From: Desulfurobacteriaceae bacterium
GTDB taxonomy: Bacteria; Aquificota; Aquificia; Desulfurobacteriales; Desulfurobacteriaceae
DNA length: 34,629 nt
Direction of reading: 5' to 3'
NCBI GenBank assembly: GCA_027013575.1
Contig: JALWGN010000055.1
Span: forward strand, 1-34,629
In this document: positions 7,515-33,609 of the stretch, piece by piece
Layout of the letters: each line of letters begins with the position of its first letter
How positions within the stretch are numbered: position 1 is the first letter of the stretch
The notes under the pieces: generated by a model
What the model saw: the letters and a program-made list of their open reading frames with translations, nothing else
What the model was told of the DNA's origin: nothing
Database searches by the model: none
Position numbers and translations under genes: made by a program

Positions 7515-7562
7515 TTTTTTACTCCTACCTTTGAGTAAGGCTAAATTATACAGTCCTTTTGT

Positions 7563-7568
7563 TAGAAT
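7563..7568 (+). promoter_or_regulatory. Putative -10 (TAGAAT) for the riboswitch/B12 operon; opposing minus-strand TATAAT at 7545-7550 for the aminotransferase
   Basis: TAGAAT places the start near 7575, the first nt of riboswitch P1; no convincing -35. Confidence 0.45.
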
Positions 7569-7570
7569 TT

Positions 7571-7741
7571 GGCTGCACGGGTGAACGGGAAGTCCGGTGA
7601 AAGTCCGGCGCTGTCCCCGCAACCGTAAGCAGGGAATAACTTGCGGCCTTTGCCACTGGAGCAGAGAGGTTTAAAGCCGCTGCTTCGGGAAGGCTCTGGC
7701 CTCTAAGAACCCTGTAAGCCGGGAGACCGGCCCGTGCGATT
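7571..7741 (+). ncRNA. Cobalamin (AdoCbl-type) riboswitch
   Basis: P1 closure GCACGGG (7575-7581)/CCCGTGC (7731-7737); conserved GTGAAAGTCCGGCGCTGTCCCCGCAACCGTAAG, GCCACTGG, GGGAAGGCT, AAGCCGGGAGACCGGCC. Confidence 0.95.
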
Positions 7742-7750
7742 AACCGACTG

Positions 7751-10126: not shown

Positions 10127-11992
10127 ATGAGGAGATTCCTGACCGTTGCAACGGTTGTAGCCCTTTCGGTTCCTGCGTTTGCTCAGGGCAGTGAGCCGGA
10201 GGTAACCGTAACGGCCACAAGGGTTTCTGTTCCGGTTGAGAACGTTGGAGACGACGTTGACATCATCACACAGGAGCAGATTAAAGAGATGGGGTTCACC
10301 TCAATTACAGACGTCCTTAAGTACGTTGCCGGTGTTCATTTCTATTCAACCGGTGGATGGGGTAAGCAAAGTAACATTTTTGTTCAGGGACTTAAAGGTA
10401 GATATATTCTTGTTCTTGTTAACGGAGCGCCTGTAAACGACCCCTCAACTCCCGATGGAAATGCTAACTTTGAGTGGATAGACCTGGACAACGTTGAAAA
10501 GATTGAAGTTCTTAAAGGTTCCCAGAGTGCCCTTTACGGTTCTGAGGCTATAGCTGGCGTTATAAACATAATTACGAAGAAACCGGAGAAAAATACTTTT
10601 TCCGTTCGCCTTGAAGGAGGTAAATACAAGACCTTTAAAGAAAACATTTACGGAGCTCTTAGACTTAAAAGCGGTTTCTTAAGCTTTTCAGCAGAAAACT
10701 TTAAAACAAACGGCTTCAGTGCTACAAACGAAAAGGCTGGAAAGTGGACTTACAACGAAGATAACGACCCGTTCCACTACACAACGGGAACAGTTTCTTT
10801 TGGTTACTTCCCTTCTGAAAATGTTAAGCTCTATGGAGACTTTTTAGTAAAGGGAGGATATACAGACTACGATGCCGGAACTTTCCCGGCAAGAACAGAC
10901 TACGACAGGCTCTTTTCAGACCTGAAGGCTGAAATCGTCTCATCGGATAACCTCTCCTGGGAAATTCTTTTAAGTAACAATAAGGAAAACAGGGAATCTT
11001 TTGATTCAGGTCATGGAATTTATAATGGAATAACAAGATTCATTTCTATTTCTCCAACATATTATTTAAATAATAATGCTTTTCTAAAACTTAGTGCTTC
11101 TTACAGGTATGAAAAAGTGAGATCTGATTATTTCAATCCTATTTATAATTCCCATTTTACTGCCAACAAAAGTCAATTTATTCGATCACTTTTCATAGAG
11201 GGTTATACGGAGTTCCACTCTGTTTCAATCTCTGCAGCAGGAAGGGTTGATAACCATAGCAGGTTTGGAAGTCATGGAACGTATAAACTCTCGCTCTCTT
11301 ACAGGTTTTCTCCAACTAAAACTCTTATTAAGGGGCAGTATGGAACCGGCTTCAAAGCTCCAACCATTTCGGAACTCTATGGCTACTACACATCTCCTTA
11401 TGGGAAAACAGTTGGAAACCCAAACCTTGACCCTGAAAAGTCTGAAGGCTGGAACATAACCCTTCAGCAGGATATTCCACTTTTAAAGACTTCAGTTTCT
11501 GCAGCCTACTTTAAAAACAGAGTTTGGGACAGGATAACTACAGTCAAGAATGGGACAACTACAACGTACACAAACTCAGGAAAACTCAGAACGGAAGGCC
11601 TTGAGCTGAAAGGAGAAATTTCTCCGTTTGACTTCCTCAAAGTTTACGGAAACTATACTCATACAAACGTTGTTGGGAAAGAAAGCGATAAGCTCAGGAT
11701 ACCAAAAGACAGCTTTACTCTAGGATTTAAGCTTAGCTACGGTAGGTTAACCTTTAACGGCTGGGCAGAACACTATAGCTCAAGGAAAGATTTGGACTAC
11801 TCAACTTGGCCTGCAAGAGTTGTTAGACTTTCAGCTTTCACAACCTATAACTGCTACGTCTCCTACGCTTTAAACGACAGGGTTAACCTTTACGCTAAGG
11901 GAGTAAACCTGACAGATAAGAAGTACGAGCTTGCCTACGGATACAACACTATGGGGAGAGCTCTCTTCGTCGGAACGGACTTCAGGTTTTAA
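10127..11992 (+). CDS. btuB: TonB-dependent outer membrane receptor, BtuB-like
   Basis: Signal peptide, plug domain ITQEQIKEMGFTSITDVLKYVAGV...IEVLKGSQSALYGSEAIAGVINIITKKP, C-terminal beta-barrel ending in F; same operon. Confidence 0.9.
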   Translation: MRRFLTVATVVALSVPAFAQGSEPEVTVTATRVSVPVENVGDDVDIITQEQIKEMGFTSITDVLKYVAGVHFYSTGGWGKQSNIFVQGLKGRYILVLVNGAPVNDPSTPDGNANFEWIDLDNVEKIEVLKGSQSALYGSEAIAGVINIITKKPEKNTFSVRLEGGKYKTFKENIYGALRLKSGFLSFSAENFKTNGFSATNEKAGKWTYNEDNDPFHYTTGTVSFGYFPSENVKLYGDFLVKGGYTDYDAGTFPARTDYDRLFSDLKAEIVSSDNLSWEILLSNNKENRESFDSGHGIYNGITRFISISPTYYLNNNAFLKLSASYRYEKVRSDYFNPIYNSHFTANKSQFIRSLFIEGYTEFHSVSISAAGRVDNHSRFGSHGTYKLSLSYRFSPTKTLIKGQYGTGFKAPTISELYGYYTSPYGKTVGNPNLDPEKSEGWNITLQQDIPLLKTSVSAAYFKNRVWDRITTVKNGTTTTYTNSGKLRTEGLELKGEISPFDFLKVYGNYTHTNVVGKESDKLRIPKDSFTLGFKLSYGRLTFNGWAEHYSSRKDLDYSTWPARVVRLSAFTTYNCYVSYALNDRVNLYAKGVNLTDKKYELAYGYNTMGRALFVGTDFRF

Positions 11993-21318: not shown

Positions 21319-21352
21319 TTAACAATTTCTTAACAGTTTCTTCTGATAAAAT
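21319..21352 (+). promoter_or_regulatory. Pho-box-like tandem 11-bp repeats upstream of pstC
   Basis: TTAACAATTTC (21319-21329) TTAACAGTTTC (21330-21340), then TTCTGA and TAAAAT (-10, 21347-21352). Confidence 0.65.
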
Positions 21353-21382
21353 TGGCCTGCATAATGTTTTTGGAGTTTGTTG

Positions 21383-22312
21383 ATGGCCAGGAGTCGGGGA
21401 TTCTGGGCAGACTGGACTTTCGGCAAAGTTGCAGCCCTTTCGGCCTTTCTCGTTGTTGCCATTTTAGTAGCCCTTGCGGTTGTTCTGTACGGAGAGTCCA
21501 AGCTGGCAATTGATACGTTTGGTGTCTGGAAGTTTATAACTTCAAAGGTCTGGAATCCTCCGATGAATAAGTTCGGGGGAGCTCCCGCCATCTTCGGAAC
21601 GATCGTAAGTACCATCATCTCTATTCTCATAGCCGTTCCCGTTGCTATAGGAATTGCAATTTTCCTTACAGAGATCGCTCCCCACCCTTTAAGAACCCCC
21701 GTAGGGGTGGCGATAGAGCTCCTTGCCGCTATCCCCAGCATTATCTACGGGATGTGGGGGCTCTTCTTCTTTGCACCCTTTATGAGAGACTACCTGCAGC
21801 CTGTAATCCACGCAACTTTAGGCAAGCTCCCGCTTATAGGCCACTGGTTTCAGGGCTACACGCCGGGAATTGGACTTCTTACAGCATCTATCGTCCTCTC
21901 AATAATGATCCTCCCCTACACTGCTGCCATCTCAAGGGACTCCTTTAAAATGGTTCCCGACGTTCTTAAGGAGTCTGCCTACGCCCTGGGAGCCACAAAG
22001 TGGGACGTTATGAAGGACGTTGTTATTCCCTATGCCAAACTTGGAGTGGTTGGCGGGATAATTCTCTCGCTGGGGAGAGCTCTCGGTGAAACCATGGCAG
22101 TTACTTTCGTTATGGGTAACCAGCCGGTAATTCCCCACTCCCTCTTGGAGCCTGCAACCTCCATTACAGTTACGCTTGCAAACGAGTTTACAGAGGCAGA
22201 TACAGACCTCTACCTTTCAAGCCTCTTCTACCTGGCCTTTATCCTCTTCGTTATGAGCTTTCTCGTTATAGCCATCGGCAAGTTCGTTTTCCTTAAAAGG
22301 GTTGAGAGGTAA
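21383..22312 (+). CDS. pstC: Phosphate ABC transporter permease PstC
   Basis: PVAIGIAIFLTEIAP...ELLAAIPSIIYGMWGLFFFAP...ALGATKWDVMKDVVIPYAKLGVVGGIILSLGRALGETMAV; track start TTG 21377, ATG 21383. Confidence 0.95.
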   Translation: MARSRGFWADWTFGKVAALSAFLVVAILVALAVVLYGESKLAIDTFGVWKFITSKVWNPPMNKFGGAPAIFGTIVSTIISILIAVPVAIGIAIFLTEIAPHPLRTPVGVAIELLAAIPSIIYGMWGLFFFAPFMRDYLQPVIHATLGKLPLIGHWFQGYTPGIGLLTASIVLSIMILPYTAAISRDSFKMVPDVLKESAYALGATKWDVMKDVVIPYAKLGVVGGIILSLGRALGETMAVTFVMGNQPVIPHSLLEPATSITVTLANEFTEADTDLYLSSLFYLAFILFVMSFLVIAIGKFVFLKRVER

Positions 22313-22315
22313 ACC

Positions 22316-23158
22316 TTGGACGCAGTAAGGAGAAGGAAATTTATAAACGGGTTTATTCTGGTTCTCTCCACTCTTGCTGCCCTCTTTGGCCTTATGTGGC
22401 TTTTCTGGATACTGGGAACTCTTCTGTATAAAGGTCTCGGTTCCCTCTCCCTTGAAGTCTTCATAGGCAATCCTCCCGCCCCGGGAGACAACACGGGAGG
22501 ACTCAAGCACGCAATAGTGGGGCAGACACTTATCGTTCTTATAGCAACCCTTATCGGAATACCCGTTGGAATACTTGCAGGAACCTACCTCTCAGAGTAC
22601 GGTGGGAACAGCAGGGTTGCCAACTTCATAAGGGACTTATCAGACGTTGTTATGAGCGTTCCTTCAATCGTTGTTGGAACATTTATCTACGCGATAATGG
22701 TTAAGCCTGCCGGCCACTTTATGGGAATAGCAGGTTCTGTCTCCCTTGCCATAATGATGATTCCCATCATCCTGAGAACTACAGACGACATGTTGAGGAT
22801 GGTTCCGCCGGAGCTCCGTGAAGCCGCCTACGCCCTCGGAGCAACCAAGTTCAAAGTTATAAAAGACGTCGTCTACAGGGCTGCCATAACGGGGATAGTT
22901 ACCGGAGTGATACTCTCCGTTGCAAGGATTGGCGGAGAGACCGCCCCTCTCCTCTTTACCTCCTTCAACAACAACTTCTTCACACTTAACATCTTCCAGC
23001 CTATGGCGTCTTTAACTGTAACCATGTACGACTACGCCATGAGCCCTTACAAGTACTGGCAACAGCTTGCCTGGGCTGCAGCGATAATTCTGACCTTTGG
23101 TGTACTTGGAGCCAACATAATTGGTAGAGTAATAGCCCACTACAAGTTTAAGAAGTAG
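22316..23158 (+). CDS. pstA: Phosphate ABC transporter permease PstA
   Basis: [42 protein letters not shown]...[46 protein letters not shown]. Confidence 0.95.
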
Positions 23159-23166
23159 GAGGAGAT

Positions 23167-23946
23167 ATGGCCTTTGTTATAGAGCCTAAAGAACCGGTTA
23201 AGATAGTTGTTGATCACCTTAAGTTTTACTACGGAGACCATCAGGTTCTTAAAGACATCTCCTTCAAAGTTCCCGAGAAAAAGGTAACTGCTCTAATAGG
23301 CCCTTCAGGGTGCGGAAAAACCACTCTCCTAAGGTGTTTCAACAGGATGCACGACCTCTACCCCGGTAACAGGTACGAGGGGAGAATACTCCTTGACGGT
23401 GAGAACATACTTGACCCCAACTACGACGTTATAAGGCTCAGAATAAGAGTAGGTATGGTTTTTCAGAAGCCCACGGCTTTCCCCATGTCAATCTTTGACA
23501 ACGTTGCCTACGGCTTGAGACTTCAGGGTCTGAAAAACAAGACAGAGCTTGCAGATAGGGTTGAAAAAGCTTTAAAGGATGCAGCCCTCTGGGACGAGGT
23601 AAAGGACAAGTTGAACAAGCCTGCTACTGCTCTCTCTGGAGGTCAACAGCAGAGGCTCTGCATTGCAAGGGCTATAGCCGTTGAGCCCGAGGTTCTTCTC
23701 TTTGACGAGCCAACCTCTGCCCTTGACCCCATCTCAACTGCAAAGATAGAGGAGCTGGTTGTAAGCTTCAGGGACAAGCTCACCGTAATAATCGTTACCC
23801 ACAACATGCAGCAGGCCGCTAGGGTTTCCGACTATACGGCCTTTATGTACATGGGAGAGCTCATAGAGTTCAACAGAACGGAAGACCTCTTCGTTAAGCC
23901 TAAGGAAAAGCTTACAGAGGACTACATCACCGGAAGGTTCGGTTAA
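23167..23946 (+). CDS. pstB: Phosphate ABC transporter ATPase PstB
   Basis: [32 protein letters not shown]...[22 protein letters not shown]...[15 protein letters not shown]...[15 protein letters not shown]. Confidence 0.97.
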
Positions 23947-24018
23947 GAAAAAGATAAAAATTTCATAATCCTTGACCTTTCAGCCTCTTCTATCTTAAAA
24001 TAGTTTCAACGAGCGCTT

Positions 24019-24058
24019 TTTACAGATTGTTTACAAATTTTTTACAATTTGGTAATAT
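24019..24058 (+). promoter_or_regulatory. Three 11-bp phased TTTACA repeats overlapping the nuoA promoter
   Basis: TTTACAGATTG (24019) TTTACAAATTT (24030) TTTACAATTTG (24041) then TAATAT (24053-24058); middle repeat is a 17-nt-spaced -35. Confidence 0.65.
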
Positions 24059-24084: not shown

Positions 24085-24420
24085 ATGCTCTACAGCTTTA
24101 TAGTTTTCCTCATCGTGATGGCGCTTGCAGGACTTCTTCTCTGGGTAATGTCCGTTGCCGTGGCTCCAAAGGATCCCCACCCTGTTAAGGAAGATACGTA
24201 CGAGTGTGGTCTTCCAGCCCCGGAGCCAATAATCTCCAGCGTTAACTTCCAGTACTACTTCTACGCTATCATCTTTATCGCTATGGATATAGCAGGTGTC
24301 TTCTTCGTTCTTTACTCCGTTGGTAAGGGAGACCCCAAGTTCGGCTGGATATTTATCCTCTTCTCACTCCTTCTCATGATTCCCCTTACTTACGTAATGG
24401 TTGGAGGAAACAGGAGATGA
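24085..24420 (+). CDS. nuoA: NADH-quinone oxidoreductase-type subunit A
   Basis: VAPKDPHPVKEDTYECGLPAPEP...INFQYYFYAIIFIAMDIAGVFF-like NuoA pattern; followed by nuoB. Confidence 0.93.
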   Translation: MLYSFIVFLIVMALAGLLLWVMSVAVAPKDPHPVKEDTYECGLPAPEPIISSVNFQYYFYAIIFIAMDIAGVFFVLYSVGKGDPKFGWIFILFSLLLMIPLTYVMVGGNRR

Positions 24421-24887
24421 TACTTAAGTTCTTTGACTGGTCTCGCTCAAACTCTCCGTGGGGAGTTCACTTCTGTAGCGGTTGCTGTTCACTTGAGGTA
24501 CTTGCTCTTATGAGCCCCCGTTTTGACTGGGAGAGGTACGGTTTTATGATGACTCCGAGCCCCCGTCAGGCCGACTTCATAATCGTTACAGGGCTGGTTT
24601 CAAGGAAGGTTCTGCCCGTTCTTCTCAGGGTTTACCAGCAGATGCCCGAACCCAGGTACGTTTTCGGTATGGGTGCCTGTGCAGGAGGTGGAGGACCTTA
24701 CTGGGATTCAGACTTTGTTGCAGTTGACGTTTCCCAGTACATTCCCTTTGACGTCTTTGTTGCAGGCTGTCCTCCAAACCCTGAAGCTACCCTTGAAGGC
24801 TTCCTGAGGCTTAAGGAGATAATTCTGAGGGATAGGGAAAACGCGGCAAAGAGACACCCGAACCGTATGGAAGAAATAGAGTACTAA
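24417..24887 (+). CDS. nuoB: Complex I-type subunit B (atypical N-terminal Cys motif)
   Basis: HFCSGCCSLEVLALMSPRFDWERYGFMMTPSPRQADFIIVTG...RYVFGMGACAGGGGPYW...DVFVAGCPPNPEATLEG. Confidence 0.95.
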   Translation: MILKFFDWSRSNSPWGVHFCSGCCSLEVLALMSPRFDWERYGFMMTPSPRQADFIIVTGLVSRKVLPVLLRVYQQMPEPRYVFGMGACAGGGGPYWDSDFVAVDVSQYIPFDVFVAGCPPNPEATLEGFLRLKEIILRDRENAAKRHPNRMEEIEY

Positions 24888-24896
24888 GGGGTGGTT

Positions 24897-25364
24897 ATGC
24901 TTGAAGAGATAAGAGAGAAGCTGAAATCTCAGTTTGGGCTTGAGTCTGAAAGTTACGATACCAACATGCTCCTCGTTAAGTGTGATAGAAACCAGCTGAG
25001 AGACCTTATGAAGTTCCTGAAGGAGAACGGTTTTAATTACCCTCACACCGTTTCCGTTGTGGACTATACCCCGAAAGGTGAGGGATTCCAGGCAAACTAC
25101 GTGCTGGAAAACCTGAACAGTAAGAAGTTTGTAATGGTAAGGGTCTCTATCCCCGAAGAGGATCTTACTGTTCCAACCGTTTCCGACATATTTCCACCCC
25201 TTCAGCCCCACGAGAGGGAAGCCTGGGAGATGTTCGGCGTTGAGTTTATAGGGAACCCGCGTCTTGAGGTTATGCTTCTTCCAGATTGGGCAGAAGGGTG
25301 GTTCCCTCTCAGGAAGTCTTACGACTTTAAGAAACACAGGAAGCCCTCTAAGGAGAAGAAGTAA
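24897..25364 (+). CDS. nuoC: Complex I-type subunit C
   Basis: HTVSVVDYTPKGEGFQANYVLENL...DIFPPLQPHEREAWEMFGVEFIGNPRLEVMLLPDWAEGWFPLRKSY; GTG 24891 alternative. Confidence 0.93.
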   Translation: MLEEIREKLKSQFGLESESYDTNMLLVKCDRNQLRDLMKFLKENGFNYPHTVSVVDYTPKGEGFQANYVLENLNSKKFVMVRVSIPEEDLTVPTVSDIFPPLQPHEREAWEMFGVEFIGNPRLEVMLLPDWAEGWFPLRKSYDFKKHRKPSKEKK

Positions 25365-26533
25365 TGGGAAACAGCATAGCCACTGCAGGATACACCTTTG
25401 TTGTTGAGGAGAGTAAGGAGATTTCCGGGGAAGACCTTGGACTTCTTCAGGAGAAGCTCCTCCAGCTTAACTGGGGTGTTCAGCACCCGGCTTCGGGTCC
25501 TATGAGGTTGAAGGTTTGGGTTGACGGTGACGAGGTTGTTAAGGTTGACCCCGACATAGGTTACGTTTTGAGGCTTCTTGAGAAGCTCGTTGAGTATAGA
25601 ACCTGGATAAACGCCATAGTTAACGTAGAGAGAGCCTGTTTTATTGATAACTTTGGAACGATGACCGGCTACTCAATCGCTGCAGAGAAGATAGCAGGCG
25701 TAGAGGTTCCTAAGAAGGCAGATTACGTAAGGACTATCCTCTGTGAAGGTGGAAGGATTGTCAGCCACCTGATAGGTCTGGGAAGCTTCGTTGGAGTTAT
25801 GGGAGTCCATACTCCCATGCAGTGGGCTCTCATAGCCCGTGAGAAGTTCCTTGATGCCTTTGAGGTCTACTCCGGCCAGAGGATCGCTACTGCTTCAATC
25901 ATTCCCGGTGGTGTAAGGTACGAGCCTACCGGGAAGTTTATAGAGAAGATGATTACTGCCGTAGACTTTCTTGAGAAGGAGTTTATTCCAAGGTACGGAG
26001 AGGTTTTTATAGATAACCCGACTCTTAAAGTTCGTTCTGAAGGTATTGGGGTTGTTCCAAAGGAGAAGGCTGTAGAGCTGGGACTTGCGGGACCTGCTCT
26101 AAGGGCGTCTGGTATTCCCTCAGACATCAGGAAGGACTACCCCTACGCAGCTTACGGTGAACTTGACTTTAAGGTTGTAACGAAAGAGGAGGGAGACTGT
26201 TACGCCAGGTATCTGGTTATCTGGGAAGAGCTAATAGAGTCTGCGAAGATAATCAGGCAGGCTATTGAGGGGCTTCCGGAGGGAGAGTGGAGAACGAAGT
26301 TCCCGATAAAGGTTCCTCCCGGAGAGGCCTACGTTAACGTTGAGTGGGCAAGGGGCTGTTTCGGTTTCCACCTCATAAGTGACGGTGGAACGGGACCCTA
26401 CAGGTTGAAGATGAGAGCTCCCTCCTTTGCCAACCTCTGGGCTATGCCGGAGATAATGAAGAACGTTAAGCTTGCAGACGTTCCGGTTATCTTTGCTTCA
26501 CTCTACATGTGTCACGGCGATATAGACAGGTAG
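25364..26533 (+). CDS. nuoD: Complex I-type subunit D (49-kDa homologue, atypical)
   Basis: LNWGVQHPASGPMRLKVWVDGDEVVKVDPDIGYVLRLLEKLVEYRTW...MTGYSIAAEKIAGVEVP...SDIRKDYPYAAY...LISDGGTGPYRLKMRAPSFANLWAM. Confidence 0.95.
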   Translation: MGNSIATAGYTFVVEESKEISGEDLGLLQEKLLQLNWGVQHPASGPMRLKVWVDGDEVVKVDPDIGYVLRLLEKLVEYRTWINAIVNVERACFIDNFGTMTGYSIAAEKIAGVEVPKKADYVRTILCEGGRIVSHLIGLGSFVGVMGVHTPMQWALIAREKFLDAFEVYSGQRIATASIIPGGVRYEPTGKFIEKMITAVDFLEKEFIPRYGEVFIDNPTLKVRSEGIGVVPKEKAVELGLAGPALRASGIPSDIRKDYPYAAYGELDFKVVTKEEGDCYARYLVIWEELIESAKIIRQAIEGLPEGEWRTKFPIKVPPGEAYVNVEWARGCFGFHLISDGGTGPYRLKMRAPSFANLWAMPEIMKNVKLADVPVIFASLYMCHGDIDR

Positions 26534-26543
26534 GAGGCTGAGT

Positions 26544-27488
26544 ATGGAAGCCTGGATTAAAGCTATATTTTTCCCCGGTTTTGTCTTTCTGCTGGTTGTG
26601 TTCCTCATGATTTTCTACCTTGAGAGGAAGATACTTGCAGACGTTCACCTGAGGACGGGACCTTACTACGTCGGTAAGTGGGGTCTTCTTCAGACTACTG
26701 CAGACGTCTTTAAGCTCCTTCAGAAGGAGTTTATTATCCAGAGAAGGGCAAACAAGCTCCTCTTCTCCCTCATTCCCTTCGTTGCCTTCCTTATGGTTGC
26801 AATGCTTATAGCCTTCATACCTTTTTCTGAACACAGTTTTATAGTCAGTACTAGCTTTGACCTGCTTATAGTTCTTGCTCTCGTTACAGGTATGCCTCCC
26901 GTCTTCTTCTACGCAGGCTGGGCTTCAAAGAGTAAGTACTCCTTTATCGGCGGTTTAAGGGTCGTTAACCAGATGATCTCAGGGGAGATCCCTCTGTGGC
27001 TCTCTGCCCTTGCTGCTGCTGTTTTCTACGGAACCCTCAACCACCTTCAGATAGTTCAGGAGAGCTCCTGGCTCGGCTTTATCATTCTCCTTCCCGCGTT
27101 CCTCATCTTTGTTACGGCAACTCTGATAGTTACAGACAGACCTCCCTTTGACATTCCCGAGGCCGAGCAGGAGATAGTTTACGGATTTCTTACAGAGTTT
27201 GGAGGTTTTAACTACGCCATTTTAGTTCTCTCCAAACTCGTTGAGCTGTTTGCGCTCTACTCTATTGCCGTTGTCCTCTTCCTCGGAGGGTTTAAAGGGC
27301 CTGTTCTTCCGGGTATCCTCTGGTTCTTCATAAAACTTGCCGGTCTCTACCTCTTCACTTTTGTCGTAAGGGCTTCAACGCCCCGTATAAGGATGGATCA
27401 GCTTCTGAGGTTCTGCTGGAAGGTTCTTACTCCTTTAGCCCTTCTGAACCTTGCTTTCATAATACTGGTTAAGATGTTTATCTCTTAG
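26544..27488 (+). CDS. nuoH: Complex I-type subunit H
   Basis: YLERKILADVHLRTGPYYVGKWGLLQTTADVFKLLQKE...DRPPFDIPEAEQEIVYGFLTEFGGFNYAI. Confidence 0.96.
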   Translation: MEAWIKAIFFPGFVFLLVVFLMIFYLERKILADVHLRTGPYYVGKWGLLQTTADVFKLLQKEFIIQRRANKLLFSLIPFVAFLMVAMLIAFIPFSEHSFIVSTSFDLLIVLALVTGMPPVFFYAGWASKSKYSFIGGLRVVNQMISGEIPLWLSALAAAVFYGTLNHLQIVQESSWLGFIILLPAFLIFVTATLIVTDRPPFDIPEAEQEIVYGFLTEFGGFNYAILVLSKLVELFALYSIAVVLFLGGFKGPVLPGILWFFIKLAGLYLFTFVVRASTPRIRMDQLLRFCWKVLTPLALLNLAFIILVKMFIS

Positions 27489-27501
27489 GGAGAGGTGTTG
27501 A

Positions 27502-28101
27502 ATGGAAGCGAAAGAGGCTCTTAAGATACCCATAGAGGCAACGAAGAAGGTTGTAAGAGTTACAAAGGCTCTGTTTGCTCCCAAGGCTACAGAGATCTGG
27601 TGGGACAAGGGGATAAGGAGGGAGCTCCACTACAGAGGAAAGCACATCATAAACGCGGAGCTTTGCATAGGCTGTTCAATGTGTGCAAGAGCCTGCCCCG
27701 TTAACTGTATAGACATGGTTCCTACCGGAGTTAAGAAGCCAAGAGCCGTTCCAAAGGTTAGAGCTAACGAGTGCATATTCTGCGGCCTGTGTGAGGATGC
27801 CTGCCCGACGAAACCTGAAAAGGCCATAAAGCTGACAGACCACTACTCAATGATTTTAGAGGACGTTACCTGGGACAAGCTTACAGAGTACATCTTTGAG
27901 CCTGAAAACCTTGAGGAAGCCCTTGAGAAGGCGAAGAAGATGGAGGAGCTCTTAGAGAAGAAAAAACAGGAAGCCCTGAAGAAGAAGCAGCAGGCTCAAC
28001 AGGCAAAGGCCAAAGCTGAGGCGGGTAAGGAGAAACCTTCGGCAGAGAAGAAGCCCCAGCAGGAAGGTAAACTCCAGAAAGAAACCAAAGGAGAGGAGTA
28101 A
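27502..28101 (+). CDS. nuoI: Complex I-type subunit I, 2[4Fe-4S], with long charged C-terminal tail
   Basis: CIGCSMCARACPVNCIDMV...CIFCGLCEDACPTKPEKAIKLTDHY; K/E/Q-rich tail. Confidence 0.95.
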   Translation: MEAKEALKIPIEATKKVVRVTKALFAPKATEIWWDKGIRRELHYRGKHIINAELCIGCSMCARACPVNCIDMVPTGVKKPRAVPKVRANECIFCGLCEDACPTKPEKAIKLTDHYSMILEDVTWDKLTEYIFEPENLEEALEKAKKMEELLEKKKQEALKKKQQAQQAKAKAEAGKEKPSAEKKPQQEGKLQKETKGEE

Positions 28102-28580
28102 TGGGGAACGTCTACTTCTGGATTATCTACGCCGTTATTATAGGAAGTGCGATAATAGCCCTTGAGGCAACTTCACTCCTCTGGGCGGCTGTCTCCTTTG
28201 TCGTTCTCCTTTCAGAAATTGCTCTCGTCTACTTTGGACTCAACATGCCGGTTCTTGGCGGTGTTCAGCTTGCCATCTACGCCGGTGGAGTAACGATTCT
28301 GGTTCTCTTTGCCATAATGATGATAGGGGAGAGCTACAAGAAACCCGGCGGAAAGGCCGTTAGAGCTATTGTTCTAAGCCTGATTCTTCTGATACTCGGA
28401 ACGCTCTTCTCCTTCCTCAGCGCTATAGATACTCTTCCGTTTAAAGCTTACTCTACCGCTTTCCTTGGAACGGTTTTCGTTGAGAAGTACTCGTTCTTTA
28501 CCATTGTTCTAGGCTTTATCGTTTCTGCTCTCCTTTACATGGCCAACGCAATTATTACGAAGAAGAGGGAGGCTAAGTAA
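28101..28580 (+). CDS. nuoJ: Complex I-type subunit J
   Basis: LVYFGLNMPVLGGVQLAIYAGGVTILVLFAIMMIGES. Confidence 0.94.
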   Translation: MGNVYFWIIYAVIIGSAIIALEATSLLWAAVSFVVLLSEIALVYFGLNMPVLGGVQLAIYAGGVTILVLFAIMMIGESYKKPGGKAVRAIVLSLILLILGTLFSFLSAIDTLPFKAYSTAFLGTVFVEKYSFFTIVLGFIVSALLYMANAIITKKREAK

Positions 28581-28888
28581 TGCTTCTTGAGGCTGATGTT
28601 CACGCTTATCTGTTCTTATCCTTCTCCCTCCTTGCAGTGGGGGTGTACGGTCTTCTCTCAAGGAGATCAGTTATCAGGATGCTCTTTGCCGTTGAGATGG
28701 TGATAAATGCGGCCAACCTGAACCTTGCCATCTTCTCAGCCCAGAGAAACGTTGACGGAGAGATCTTTGCCTTCTTCACAATAGGCCTTGCTGCCCTTGA
28801 GGCAGCCGTTGGACTTGCGATAGTTATCGTCTTCTACAAGCGCTTCGGAGAGGTTATTCCTTCAAAAATCAGGAACCTGAGGTGGTAG
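28580..28888 (+). CDS. nuoK: Complex I-type subunit K
   Basis: GVYGLLSRRSVIRMLFAVEMVINAANLNLAIF...FTIGLAALEAAVGLAIVIVFYKRFG. Confidence 0.95.
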   Translation: MLLEADVHAYLFLSFSLLAVGVYGLLSRRSVIRMLFAVEMVINAANLNLAIFSAQRNVDGEIFAFFTIGLAALEAAVGLAIVIVFYKRFGEVIPSKIRNLRW

Positions 28889-28889
28889 G

Positions 28890-30728
28890 ATGGAGAAGCT
28901 GGTCTTTTTAACCTACTTAACGATAGGGATCTTCTTTGCAGGAAGTATCCTCGCATTCCTTGTTGGTAAGTTCACCCAGAGGTGGAACTCCTTCTGGGTT
29001 GCAGCTTTCACCGGACTTGCAGGGTTTCTCCTTACCTGCTTCATTGCACTGAACCTGGGAGAGCACCCTGTAGTTCATAAGTTCAACTGGTTCACCTTCG
29101 GTTCCTTTAAAGTCCCTCTCGGAATTTACGTTGATAGCCTTGCCGTAGTTATGGCGCTGATTGCTACAGGAATTGGTTTTCTGGACATCGTCTTCTCAAA
29201 AGGTTACATGGAAGACGACGAGTCTCCCCACAGGTACTACTTTGAGAAGCTCTTCTTCATCGGCTCTATGGTGGGTCTCGTTTTCGTCAGCAACCTTGTG
29301 GGCCTTTACATATTCTGGGAAGGCGTGGGTCTGTGTTCCTACCTCCTTATTGGCTACTGGTACTGGAAGAAGAGTGCTGCTGAGGCAGCGCTGAAGGCCT
29401 TTGTTATGACCCGTTTCGGCGACGTCTTTATGCTTGCCGGAATAATTGTTGCCTGGGTTCTCCTTGGAACTATAAACTTCCAGGAGCTCAACGCCCTTGC
29501 TCTTGCAGGAGCCTTCTCTGTTAAGCTGGGTCTCATTATCTCCGTACTCATATTTATCGGTGCTGTTGGTAAGTCTGCCCAGTTTCCACTCTTCCCGTGG
29601 CTTCTTGACGCTATGGAGGGTCCTACAACGGTTTCTGCTCTTATTCACGCGGCTACAATGGTTAACGCAGGTGTTTACCTCGTTGCGAGGATGTTCCCCT
29701 TCTTTGACTACTCCCACGCCCTTATAGTTGTTGGTTTCGTTGGAGCTCTCTCCGCCTTCATCGCAGCTACGGGAGCTCTCGCCCACACAGAGATTAAGAA
29801 GATTCTGGCCTTCTCAACCATGGAGCACCTTGCCTTAATGTTCGTTGCCCTCGGTGTCGGTTCAGCCGCTGCAGGTATCTTCCACCTTATGAACCACGCA
29901 ATCTTCAAGGCTCTCCTCTTCCTTGCTGCAGGTGCCGTAATCCACATGGCTCACCACCAGAAAGACGCCTTCAAACTGGGAGGTCTTTACAGGTACATGC
30001 CTCAAACTGCACTTCTCTTCCTCGTCGGTATTCTTGCGCTTGCAGGTGTTCCGCCCTTTAACGGTTTCTTCAGTAAAGACTGGATACTTGCAGCAACTTA
30101 CGCCTACGGTAACCCGATAATCTTCGGCTTAACGTTCGTTGCCGCTGTTCTCTGTATAGCTTACGGATTCAGGCTCTGGTTCGTCGTCTTTACAGGCGAG
30201 CCTTCTGAATACTCCAAGAAGGCCAAAGAGGCCTACCCTGTTATGCTCGTTCCTATGTACGTTCTTGCCGTGCTTACGGTAGTTATTCCTTTCTTTAAGG
30301 AGAAGATTATCCACTTCCTCTTTGGAGAGGTTCACGAACCTTTCTTTATCAACCTCCTGGTGGCAACCCTCACAGTTATGTTTATCCTCTTTGGAATCGT
30401 CTTCCTCATCTACTACAAGAGGGTTATCAGTACTGCCAAGTTCCTTGCCCATCCGCTGGGCAGGGGAATAAACGACTTCCTCTACAACGGCTGGTACGTT
30501 GATGCCGCTATAAAGTGGCTCTGTCGCCACGTCTTCTACGGCTCAATAGCTAAAGCAATAGAGTGGGTTGATATCCACGTTGTTGACGGAGCGGTTAACG
30601 GTACTGCAAAGCTCTCTCTTGCCTGCTGGGACAGGTGCAGGAAGATGCAGACCGGAGACGTTATAGACTACCTTACCTACTTTGTTGCCGGCGTTTTAGT
30701 ACTTACACTGATTATTCTCTTTGTTTAG
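28890..30728 (+). CDS. nuoL: Complex I-type subunit L (Mrp-like antiporter module)
   Basis: FWEGVGLCSYLLIGYWYWKKSAAEAALKAFVMTRFGDVFML...GAVGKSAQFPLFPWLLDAMEGPTTVSALIHAATMVNAGVYLVAR. Confidence 0.97.
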   Translation: MEKLVFLTYLTIGIFFAGSILAFLVGKFTQRWNSFWVAAFTGLAGFLLTCFIALNLGEHPVVHKFNWFTFGSFKVPLGIYVDSLAVVMALIATGIGFLDIVFSKGYMEDDESPHRYYFEKLFFIGSMVGLVFVSNLVGLYIFWEGVGLCSYLLIGYWYWKKSAAEAALKAFVMTRFGDVFMLAGIIVAWVLLGTINFQELNALALAGAFSVKLGLIISVLIFIGAVGKSAQFPLFPWLLDAMEGPTTVSALIHAATMVNAGVYLVARMFPFFDYSHALIVVGFVGALSAFIAATGALAHTEIKKILAFSTMEHLALMFVALGVGSAAAGIFHLMNHAIFKALLFLAAGAVIHMAHHQKDAFKLGGLYRYMPQTALLFLVGILALAGVPPFNGFFSKDWILAATYAYGNPIIFGLTFVAAVLCIAYGFRLWFVVFTGEPSEYSKKAKEAYPVMLVPMYVLAVLTVVIPFFKEKIIHFLFGEVHEPFFINLLVATLTVMFILFGIVFLIYYKRVISTAKFLAHPLGRGINDFLYNGWYVDAAIKWLCRHVFYGSIAKAIEWVDIHVVDGAVNGTAKLSLACWDRCRKMQTGDVIDYLTYFVAGVLVLTLIILFV

Positions 30729-30737
30729 GAGGAGTGG

Positions 30738-32183
30738 ATGGTTCTGCTGAGTATGATTCTGCTCCCTGTTCTGGTTGCACCGTTTGCCTGGATAGGTGAG
30801 AAGGTTAACAGGGACTTTCCGAAATACCTCTCTCTTGCCGTCGGTATTTTCCTTGCGTTCTGTACGGCATACCTCATTGTTAAGTACCCGGGGAACGGGT
30901 TTGCGTTTGAGGAGTTCTACAGGATTTACCCGCCGTTTGACTTCAACCTCCACCTTGCCGTTGACGGCATATCGCTGGTTCTCCTTGCCATTGTTGCGTT
31001 CCTTGCTATAACGGTTACCCTCTCCTCATGGCACGTTGAGAGACCGGGAGCTTACTTCTTCCTTATTCTTATCTTCCTTGGCCCCATGGTAGGTGTTTTC
31101 GTCTCTCTGAACCTGCTCTGGTTCTTTATCTTCTGGGAGTTTACCCTTGTTCCCATGTTCTTCCACATCGGTATATGGGGTGCTGAGAACAGGATATACG
31201 CTGCTATGAAGTTCTTTATCTATACACACCTTGCAAGTATCTTCCTCCTTTTAGGAATTATCGTTCTCTACCTCTCTACCCACACCTTTGAGTTTGGAAA
31301 GATCTTAAACATTCACCTTGATCCTTCAGTTGCCAAGCTGGTCTGGATACTGATGTTTATCGGTTTTGCCGTTAAGATGCCCGTTGTTCCGTTCCACACC
31401 TGGCTTCCGGATGCCCACGTTCAGGCTCCGTCTCCCATCTCCGTTTTCCTTGCAGGACTTCTCCTGAAGATGGGTGCCTACGGTCTTTTAAGGTGGGAGA
31501 TTTTCCTCTTTCCACAGACCAGTAAGTTCTTTGCTCCTCTTATGGCTTTTATTGCAGTTCTTACGATTTTCTACGCAGGTTTCAGAGCTCTGGCAGAAGA
31601 CCACATCAAGAGAATGGTTGCCTACTCCAGTATTAACCACATGGGGTTTGTCCTTCTTGGTCTTTCTGCTCTTACCGCTGCCGGTATCTCTGCTGCCGTT
31701 TACGAGATGGTGGGACACGCCCTCGTAATCTCTCTCCTTTTTATGATTGCAGGTTACATTCACCACAAAACCCACACTTGGTACATCTCTGAGCTCGGCG
31801 GAATTATGAAGAAGATTCCAGGACTTATGACGATGTTTGTTATAGGCGTTCTTGCAGCTGTTGGCCTTCCCGGAACTGCAGGTTTTGTCGGCGAGCTTAC
31901 CGTTATGCTTGCAGCCTTTGACTACTACGGCTGGATTATGGTTATCGTTCCCCTTGCCAGTGCTCTCGGTGCAGGGTTCTTTATGTGGATGCTCCAGAGA
32001 GCTGTTTTTGGACCTCTGAGGGAGGAGTTTAAGAACCTTGCTACGCTGAAGGAGCTCCCCCTCGTAGAGAACATTCCACTTGCCATGTACATTGCAGCTT
32101 TCATAATAGTCGGTATTGTTCCGGCAGTTGTCTTTAACCTTTATAACCCTGTTATCAATACCTTTGCACAACTCTTTCAGTAG
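30738..32183 (+). CDS. nuoM: Complex I-type subunit M
   Basis: FFIFWEFTLVPMFFHIGIWG...GFAVKMPVVPFHTWLPDAHVQAPSPISVFLAGLLLKMGAYGLLRW. Confidence 0.97.
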   Translation: MVLLSMILLPVLVAPFAWIGEKVNRDFPKYLSLAVGIFLAFCTAYLIVKYPGNGFAFEEFYRIYPPFDFNLHLAVDGISLVLLAIVAFLAITVTLSSWHVERPGAYFFLILIFLGPMVGVFVSLNLLWFFIFWEFTLVPMFFHIGIWGAENRIYAAMKFFIYTHLASIFLLLGIIVLYLSTHTFEFGKILNIHLDPSVAKLVWILMFIGFAVKMPVVPFHTWLPDAHVQAPSPISVFLAGLLLKMGAYGLLRWEIFLFPQTSKFFAPLMAFIAVLTIFYAGFRALAEDHIKRMVAYSSINHMGFVLLGLSALTAAGISAAVYEMVGHALVISLLFMIAGYIHHKTHTWYISELGGIMKKIPGLMTMFVIGVLAAVGLPGTAGFVGELTVMLAAFDYYGWIMVIVPLASALGAGFFMWMLQRAVFGPLREEFKNLATLKELPLVENIPLAMYIAAFIIVGIVPAVVFNLYNPVINTFAQLFQ

Positions 32184-32193
32184 GGGGTAGCCG

Positions 32194-33609
32194 GTGAACA
32201 TTAACTACTTAGCAGCAACAATGGTTTTAGCCTTAACGGGAGCCTTTCTTCCCGTTATTAACAGGCTTTTCAGGATATCGGGGATACAGGGAGCTCTCAT
32301 CTCCTCTATAGGTTACATTGTTTCTCTCTTCCTCGTTCTCATCTCGGGGGAGGGAAGGAGCGTTCTGAAGGGATTTTTCACCACTGATCCGGTCTCCATT
32401 CTGGTGGGAGCTCTCGTTTTGGTCTCCTCCTGGATGGTTATGCTGGTTGTCTACTGGATTACAGAGAAGGATAAGTTCGTAAACGAGCTTATCTCGGCGC
32501 TTATGATATCTACCGCCGGAGCTCTCCTCCTCATCAGCGCCAACAACTTTATCTCCCTTATTATTGCAATGGAACTGATGACGATGCCCACCTACCTGAT
32601 GGTTCTCTTTGCCTTTGACGACAAGTCTTTTGAGGCAGGCGTTAAGTACTTCTTCAACGGAGCTCTGGCAGTTGGCTTTATGCTCTTTGGAATATCTCTC
32701 CTCTACGGAATGACCGGCAGCTTTGACTTTTCCGCTCTTGTTAAGAACCTCTTTTCAGACCCTCTGGTTGCCCTTGCAGCCGTCTTTATCTTTGCAGGTT
32801 TTGGCTTCAAAATTACGGCGTTTCCCTTCCACTTCTGGGGGCCTGACGTTTACGATGGGACCTGCCCCGGCGTTGCAGCTCTCCTTACAGGTATCTCAAA
32901 GAGTGCTGCCTTTATAGGTCTTATGAGGGTCGTTTACGAGGCTATTCCGGTTATTGCAGGCCACTTCCCCCTCATACTGGCGATTATCGCAGCACTCACT
33001 ATGACTGTAGGTAACCTTTTAGCCCTTGCCCAGAAGAGGGTTTCAAGGATTCTTGCCTACTCCTCCGTTGCCCACGCCGGCTACACGCTTGTAGCCTTTG
33101 CAGCTCTTTCTGTTCCACTGAGCGTTACAGGTATCATCTACCACTCCGTTGCCTACGTCTTTATGAAAACGGCGGCCTTCCTCTGCTTTGCAGTTCTCCT
33201 GTTCGTCTGGGGTGCGAGGACAATGGACGACTACAAAGGCCTTGGAAGGAGGGAGCCGCTGCTTGGAGCTCTCTTCCTCATCTTCCTCCTCTCACTTGCA
33301 GGTGTTCCGCCTATGGCAGGCTTTATCAGTAAGGTCTTTGTCTTTACGGCTGCCGTTGATGCAGGAATGACATGGCTGGCACTTATAGGTCTTCTCAACA
33401 GTGCCTTCTCGGTTGCCTACTACATCTGGATAGCAAAACAGATGTACCTTGAGGAGCCTACGCTTGAGAAGCCGATAAACGACTCACCGAACAAGAACTG
33501 GATACTCCTTCCACTTGCCGTTATGGCAGTTCTCCTCATACTCTTCGGTATCTGGATCAACCCCGTTGTTGACGCTTCTGCCGTTTACGCTGCAAAGGTT
33601 GGGTTTTAA
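32194..33609 (+). CDS. nuoN: Complex I-type subunit N
   Basis: ISLIIAMELMTMPTYLMVLFA...AGFGFKITAFPFHFWGPDVYDGTCPGVAALLTGISKSAAF; GTG start. Confidence 0.96.
   Translation: MNINYLAATMVLALTGAFLPVINRLFRISGIQGALISSIGYIVSLFLVLISGEGRSVLKGFFTTDPVSILVGALVLVSSWMVMLVVYWITEKDKFVNELISALMISTAGALLLISANNFISLIIAMELMTMPTYLMVLFAFDDKSFEAGVKYFFNGALAVGFMLFGISLLYGMTGSFDFSALVKNLFSDPLVALAAVFIFAGFGFKITAFPFHFWGPDVYDGTCPGVAALLTGISKSAAFIGLMRVVYEAIPVIAGHFPLILAIIAALTMTVGNLLALAQKRVSRILAYSSVAHAGYTLVAFAALSVPLSVTGIIYHSVAYVFMKTAAFLCFAVLLFVWGARTMDDYKGLGRREPLLGALFLIFLLSLAGVPPMAGFISKVFVFTAAVDAGMTWLALIGLLNSAFSVAYYIWIAKQMYLEEPTLEKPINDSPNKNWILLPLAVMAVLLILFGIWINPVVDASAVYAAKVGF

Follow-up and report, generated by a model that had tools for sequence, protein, structure and literature searches.

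The complex I operon of this Desulfurobacteriaceae bacterium is preceded by three TTTACA repeats in tandem, and this triple repeat upstream of nuoA is a real feature. Judging by its sequence, it is one of a family-wide set of near-identical boxes (TTTACA-N5-TTTACA, called the M-box here) covering central carbon and electron metabolism. Our favoured explanation, held with moderate confidence, is that the M-boxes make up a regulon read by the OmpR-type regulator RR1, with the nuo and reductive TCA cycle genes as its targets. In these inhabitants of hot vents, a single regulator, still putative, probably keeps carbon fixation and energy metabolism in balance with each other.

The window, i.e. the whole stretch of DNA that was analysed, is 34,629 nucleotides long. 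The features around nuoA, all on the forward strand, are as follows, promoter elements being assigned by consensus only.

21319 to 21335, forward: Pho-type box (P-box) TTAACA-ATTTC-TTAACA upstream of pstC, by pattern match; the contrasting box
21377 to 23946, forward: pstC, pstA and pstB, phosphate transporter genes (NCBIfam TIGR02138, TIGR00974 and TIGR00972, over cut-off)
23972 to 24001, forward: P1, a canonical sigma-70-like promoter, TTGACC-18-TAAAAT; TTGACN-18-TAA[AG]AT in 12 of 17 genomes
24019 to 24024, forward: M-box repeat 1, TTTACA, by sequence and pattern match; kept in 17 genomes
24030 to 24035, forward: M-box repeat 2, TTTACA, at the -35 position relative to TAATAT
24041 to 24046, forward: M-box repeat 3, TTTACA, 6 nt 5' of TAATAT
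24053 to 24058, forward: -10-like hexamer TAATAT of P2, with TGG before it; TAnnnT at equal distance in most of the 17 genomes
24085 to 24420, forward: nuoA, first gene of the complex I operon (Pfam PF00507)
24417 to 33609, forward: remaining nuo operon; nuoB, C, D, H and I by Pfam, J to N by order and length only

Positions 24019 to 24058 read TTTACAGATTG-TTTACAAATTT-TTTACAATTTGG-TAATAT in the window sequence, with 17 nt between the middle hexamer and TAATAT. The preliminary description had set the three hexamers at 24019, 24030 and 24041, in exact 11-bp phase, and had paired the middle one with TAATAT as -35 and -10; re-reading of the positions bore out both the phase and the overlap. TTTACA-N5-TTTACA-N5-TTTACA with up to three mismatches is expected 0.03 times per dinucleotide-shuffled window, and for the exact triple the observed frequency of the hexamer predicts about 4e-6 occurrences per window. 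A nuoA gene of this type is found in 17 family genomes. The absence of the repeats from sister species had been named beforehand as fatal to the reading, and hexamers of the TTTACA type stand on the 11-bp grid upstream of the gene in 17 of the 17. Their number varies from two to five and is mostly three, with two in G004, four in G014 and G009, five in G007, and four in G012 and G017 when degenerate copies are included. A -10-like TAnnnT follows the last repeat by 6 nt in most of these genomes; G017, with TAAGAC, is an exception, and so is G014, in which TACAAT comes from the fourth repeat. The M-box was absent at 13 of 13 nuoA-like loci in other families of the class.

The genome scan for TTWACA-N5-TTWACA proposed in the preliminary description was run with the reversed pattern as control, and returned 12 matches against 0 in the host genome and 310 against 31, summed, in 22 family genomes. 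The 12 host matches fall at nine places, all of them intergenic or at a gene end. In G007, which is AT-rich, most of what a loose scan for the triple with 3 mismatches picked up was noise (70 matches versus 47 in the control). The list of targets was drawn from genes adjoining boxes, orthologues without a box being counted for nuoA only, and NCBIfam and Pfam served to check most of the target names. In several genera the M-box lies upstream of sucC (succinyl-CoA synthetase), aconitase, a divergent pair of frdA genes (fumarate reductases) and mdh, and also upstream of nfnA or nfnB of Nfn type, a name which is our reading of matches to 'NADPH-dependent glutamate synthase' and 'sulfide/dihydroorotate dehydrogenase-like'. 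Further boxes are found upstream of a ybaB-recR operon, with porG next where seen, and at the 3' end of idh, beside ATP citrate lyase (acl). A second complex I operon (nuoA2), downstream of a fumarase gene, also carries the box, and in the genus of G016 and G019 it stands at a much diverged nuoA and at nuoEF genes; no recognisable M-box was found upstream of nuoE in G007. The orientation of the box relative to the gene varies among targets. The link to complex I made in the preliminary description was incomplete, as most reductive TCA cycle genes share the box.

Several of these loci have features of their own. The nuoA2 boxes are in reverse orientation in several genomes (C41 = L270, L133, L268, L269), and on contig C41 nuoE lies downstream in the nuoA2 operon. 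The idh box is situated directly 3' of the stop codon and before a terminator-like hairpin (L003 1501-1540); on the antisense strand TATTAT follows the last repeat by 7 nt, a possible antisense promoter into idh which is inseparable from coding constraint. In several genera an M-box also marks the beginning of a small gene that has no Pfam match and is followed by a gene for a protein with a CxxCH haem-type motif (L142, L018, L266, L274, L276 and L277).

Tandem 11-bp repeats over a -35 element had been described as OmpR/PhoB-family architecture, and the repeats, the -35/-10 overlap and the sister species all agree with this. Operators of that family have at least two direct repeats at about 11 bp; three are present here and two to five in relatives. 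They also overlap promoter elements of several genes, as the box does by consensus at P2 of nuoA and at acn, and the regulator RR1 is conserved alongside the box in 21 of 22 genomes. On this reading a response regulator of the OmpR/PhoB type would bind the nuoA repeats as its operator, its monomers arranged head to tail and each on one 11-bp repeat. The site would be a member of a family-wide M-box regulon that takes in Nfn-type transhydrogenase genes as well as complex I and the greater part of the reductive TCA cycle. It is hardly credible that the repeats are accidental or mere redundant -35 elements: TTTACA is similar to TTGACA, but the 17/17 conservation, the exact phase, the variable copy number (2-5) and the identical box at unrelated promoters all argue against this. 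Binding of the M-boxes by a protein outside the OmpR type, e.g. another tandem-binding regulator or a nucleoid protein, is improbable. OmpR-type ownership is read from sequence architecture only, and the RR1 gene lacks a clear autoregulatory box; against this, PhoB, ArcA, WalR and HP1043 are known to use tandem 11-bp repeats of T-rich hexamers as operators (PMC3798270, PMC9210968, PMC5253667), and RR1 is a conserved orphan OmpR-type member at hand. Placing complex I in the Pho regulon, with PhoB bound to the nuoA repeats, is slightly less probable still. PhoB is an OmpR-type protein encoded with its kinase in Desulfurobacteriaceae genomes, its half-site TTAACA is closely related and shares the 11-bp spacing, and the pstC box lies within the window, 2.7 kb upstream of the nuoA repeats. 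The Pho box resembles the M-box in its 11-bp tandem repeats over the -35, and half-sites of Bacillus PhoP are close to TTWACA; the difference is that the Pho genes of Desulfurobacteriaceae carry a separable box. Sites at the pst, pho and presumed phosphate-porin operons read TTAACA-NNTTC-TTAACA, whereas the metabolic sites read TTTACA-AAATT-TTTACA. The two classes differ at position 3, with A/A in 14 of 14 phosphate and 2 of 41 metabolic boxes (Fisher p 3e-11), and at the spacer end, with YC in 13 of 14 and 0 of 41 (Fisher p 1e-11), both p values being indicative because orthologues are not independent. The PhoB gene itself sits in a locus with a phosphate-type box (G007), and the recognition helix of PhoB is unlike that of RR1. 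Since P-box and M-box are separate, PhoB is not a likely owner of the nuoA repeats, which differ from the pst/pho box of the same organisms, and the earlier phosphate reading is not supported.

Three host proteins have an OmpR-type DNA-binding domain, namely RR1 (contig C89), PhoB (C19) and RR3 (C26). RR3 has an atypical receiver and an OmpR-type C-terminus, and HP1043 binds the nuo operon (PMC5253667), which could suggest an analogue of HP1043/CosR with a degenerate receiver controlling nuo; this is extremely unlikely, since RR3 was found in only 8 of the 61 genomes searched and was not detected in the box-keeping G007, G009, G016 and others. RR3 gave no PDB match at E<=1. Its patchy distribution rules it out as an HP1043-like owner. 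The RR3 gene (L051 1489-2148, reverse strand, C26) adjoins two 165-aa proteins whose C-termini have a putative Hfq/LSm-like look.

With RR3 excluded by its distribution and PhoB disfavoured by its distinct boxes, RR1 is the likeliest owner of the M-box by elimination, if the owner is of the OmpR type. It is present in 21 of the 22 family genomes at 58-97% identity, and the genome without it is 62% complete; in the 99% complete G016, RR1 and PhoB are the only OmpR-type regulators. In the aligned full-length copies, RR1 keeps the acidic pocket, the phospho-acceptor Asp, the Thr and the Lys, and its recognition helix TRT[VL]DVYISRLRKKL is invariant in every one. No kinase gene lies beside RR1, whereas PhoB has its own kinase adjoining. 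The partner of RR1 may be a conserved orphan PAS histidine kinase (G000 C43:35267 group), whose gene has no regulator next to it and is kept in four of the four genomes examined. The M-box would accordingly belong to an orphan, phosphorylation-competent regulator. The RR1 gene has no consistent M-box, the best candidates being tandem sites with one mismatch in a few genomes, and no ArcA chain was found among its best 60 PDB matches at E<=1e-20. A further OmpR-type regulator gene has TTWACA tandem repeats at its own start, as if self-regulated (L160 802-829, L161 1684-1700).

Complex I under an OmpR-type regulator has a precedent in ArcA of E. coli. The ArcA half-site is TGTTAA, or TTAACA on the opposite strand, whereas the dominant half-site here is TTTACA (TGTAAA on the opposite strand). 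The sites of ArcA consist of two to five direct repeats spaced by 11 bp and mostly overlap promoters; through them ArcA controls carbon oxidation in response to quinones (PMC3798270). The M-box is comparable with the ArcA regulon of Escherichia coli, in which an OmpR/PhoB-family regulator, 11-bp repeats, carbon oxidation and respiration targets and a quinone redox signal are combined, and 11-bp direct repeats are likewise found here at TCA-cycle and NADH dehydrogenase genes; here, by contrast, the cycle is the reverse one (CO2 fixation), the host is a thermophilic anaerobe and the best candidate for the regulator has no partner kinase gene beside it. The orphan OmpR-type HP1043 of H. pylori binds TTTAAG-N5-TTTAAG, with 11-bp centres, and the nuo operon (PMC5253667). 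HP1043/HsrA of Helicobacter pylori and CosR of Campylobacter thus share the orphan OmpR-type regulator, the tandem 11-bp site and the nuo target, but the half-sites are unlike, and the HP1043 receiver is degenerate and phosphorylation-independent while RR1 keeps all phosphorylation residues; the degenerate protein here, RR3, is patchy. The reverse complement of the M-box, TGTAAA-N5-TGTAAA, fits the WalR/YycF consensus of Firmicutes, TGTWAH-N5-TGTWAH (PMC9210968), but WalR is paired with WalK and controls cell-wall genes, whereas the M-box is found at central metabolism. To call two-component control of complex I unexpected was therefore an overstatement, given HP1043 (PMC5253667) and ArcA. The kind of operator is already known; the target set, with an OmpR-type box wired to the reductive TCA cycle, looks new beside these precedents.

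The preliminary description had taken the repeats as the nuoA promoter. The -35/-10 overlap stands, but since a conserved P1 lies upstream, they are not the entire promoter; as read from the consensus, nuoA probably has two, P1 upstream and P2 formed by the middle repeat and TAATAT, with predicted starts near 24008 and 24065 respectively. The spacer of P1 is 18 nt in every genome with P1 (12 of 17), and its -10 ends 14-17 nt before the first repeat, or 27 nt in G010. At about -46 to -19 of P2 the nuoA box would be activator-like, the position of PhoB-type activators, and just 3' of the P1 start it has a blocking position, so the sign of control at nuoA is uncertain. Within the same regulon, the box could be a plain operator at nuoA, the bound regulator blocking both P1 and P2. 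P1 is conserved in 12 of 17 genomes and ends just upstream of the first repeat, P2 could work unaided because TTTACA matches the sigma-70 -35 at five of six positions, and most ArcA sites overlap promoters (PMC3798270). We consider blockage of both promoters rather unlikely, for the distance of the P2 -10 to the repeats is fixed even in G004, G007, G009 and G012, where P1 was unrecognised, as expected of an activated promoter, and NuoEFG and the enzymes of the reductive cycle shift oppositely with H2 (PMC12724263) while the acn box is repressor-like. The aconitase promoter, TTGAAA (or TTGATT)-17-CATAAT, has two repeats in the -35/-10 spacer and over the -10 in 11 of 11 genomes, a geometry from which repression is inferred. 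At sucC the repeats run the opposite way, and in most genomes they lie over a TAAAAT hexamer.

Activation of nuo through P2 and repression of the cycle can be compared with the H2 chemostat proteome of Desulfurobacterium thermolithotrophum HR11 (2025). At low H2, Frd was up 2.4 to 18-fold, Suc and Ogor 3.2-4.8, Acl 2.2-3.3 and, with weaker significance, Idh 3.0 and Acn 2.5, while NuoEFG was down 3.2-3.7 and Mdh, fumarase and Por were unchanged (PMC12724263). NuoA-D and H-N were not quantified, and no regulator of the H2 response was named (PMC12724263). A regulator that is active at high H2, activates nuo and represses the cycle would shift most box-bearing pathways in the directions seen, which is suggestive; Mdh and pyruvate oxidoreductase are unchanged, yet their operons bear boxes in some genomes, and the strongest-responding hydrogenases are not among the recognised box-bearing genes. 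When the signal, either H2 or the quinone redox state, is high, complex I could go up and the reductive TCA cycle down. More tentatively, a single orphan OmpR-type regulator could play the part of ArcA in these CO2-fixing anaerobes, as the H2 or quinone-redox switch by which Desulfurobacteriaceae set the reductive TCA cycle against complex I. H2 supply is known from this proteome to move most of the cycle and NuoEFG in opposite directions, the regulator being unnamed in the literature found, and outside subscription journals no regulator of reductive TCA genes in Desulfurobacteriaceae was found. Given a specific box, a list of targets and just one candidate regulator, the control of this cycle becomes directly testable.

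Elsewhere in the window, a cobalamin riboswitch (Rfam RF00174, 90.5 bits) lies at 7562-7749 on the forward strand, upstream of a gene cluster which includes a TonB-dependent receptor gene at 10127-11992.
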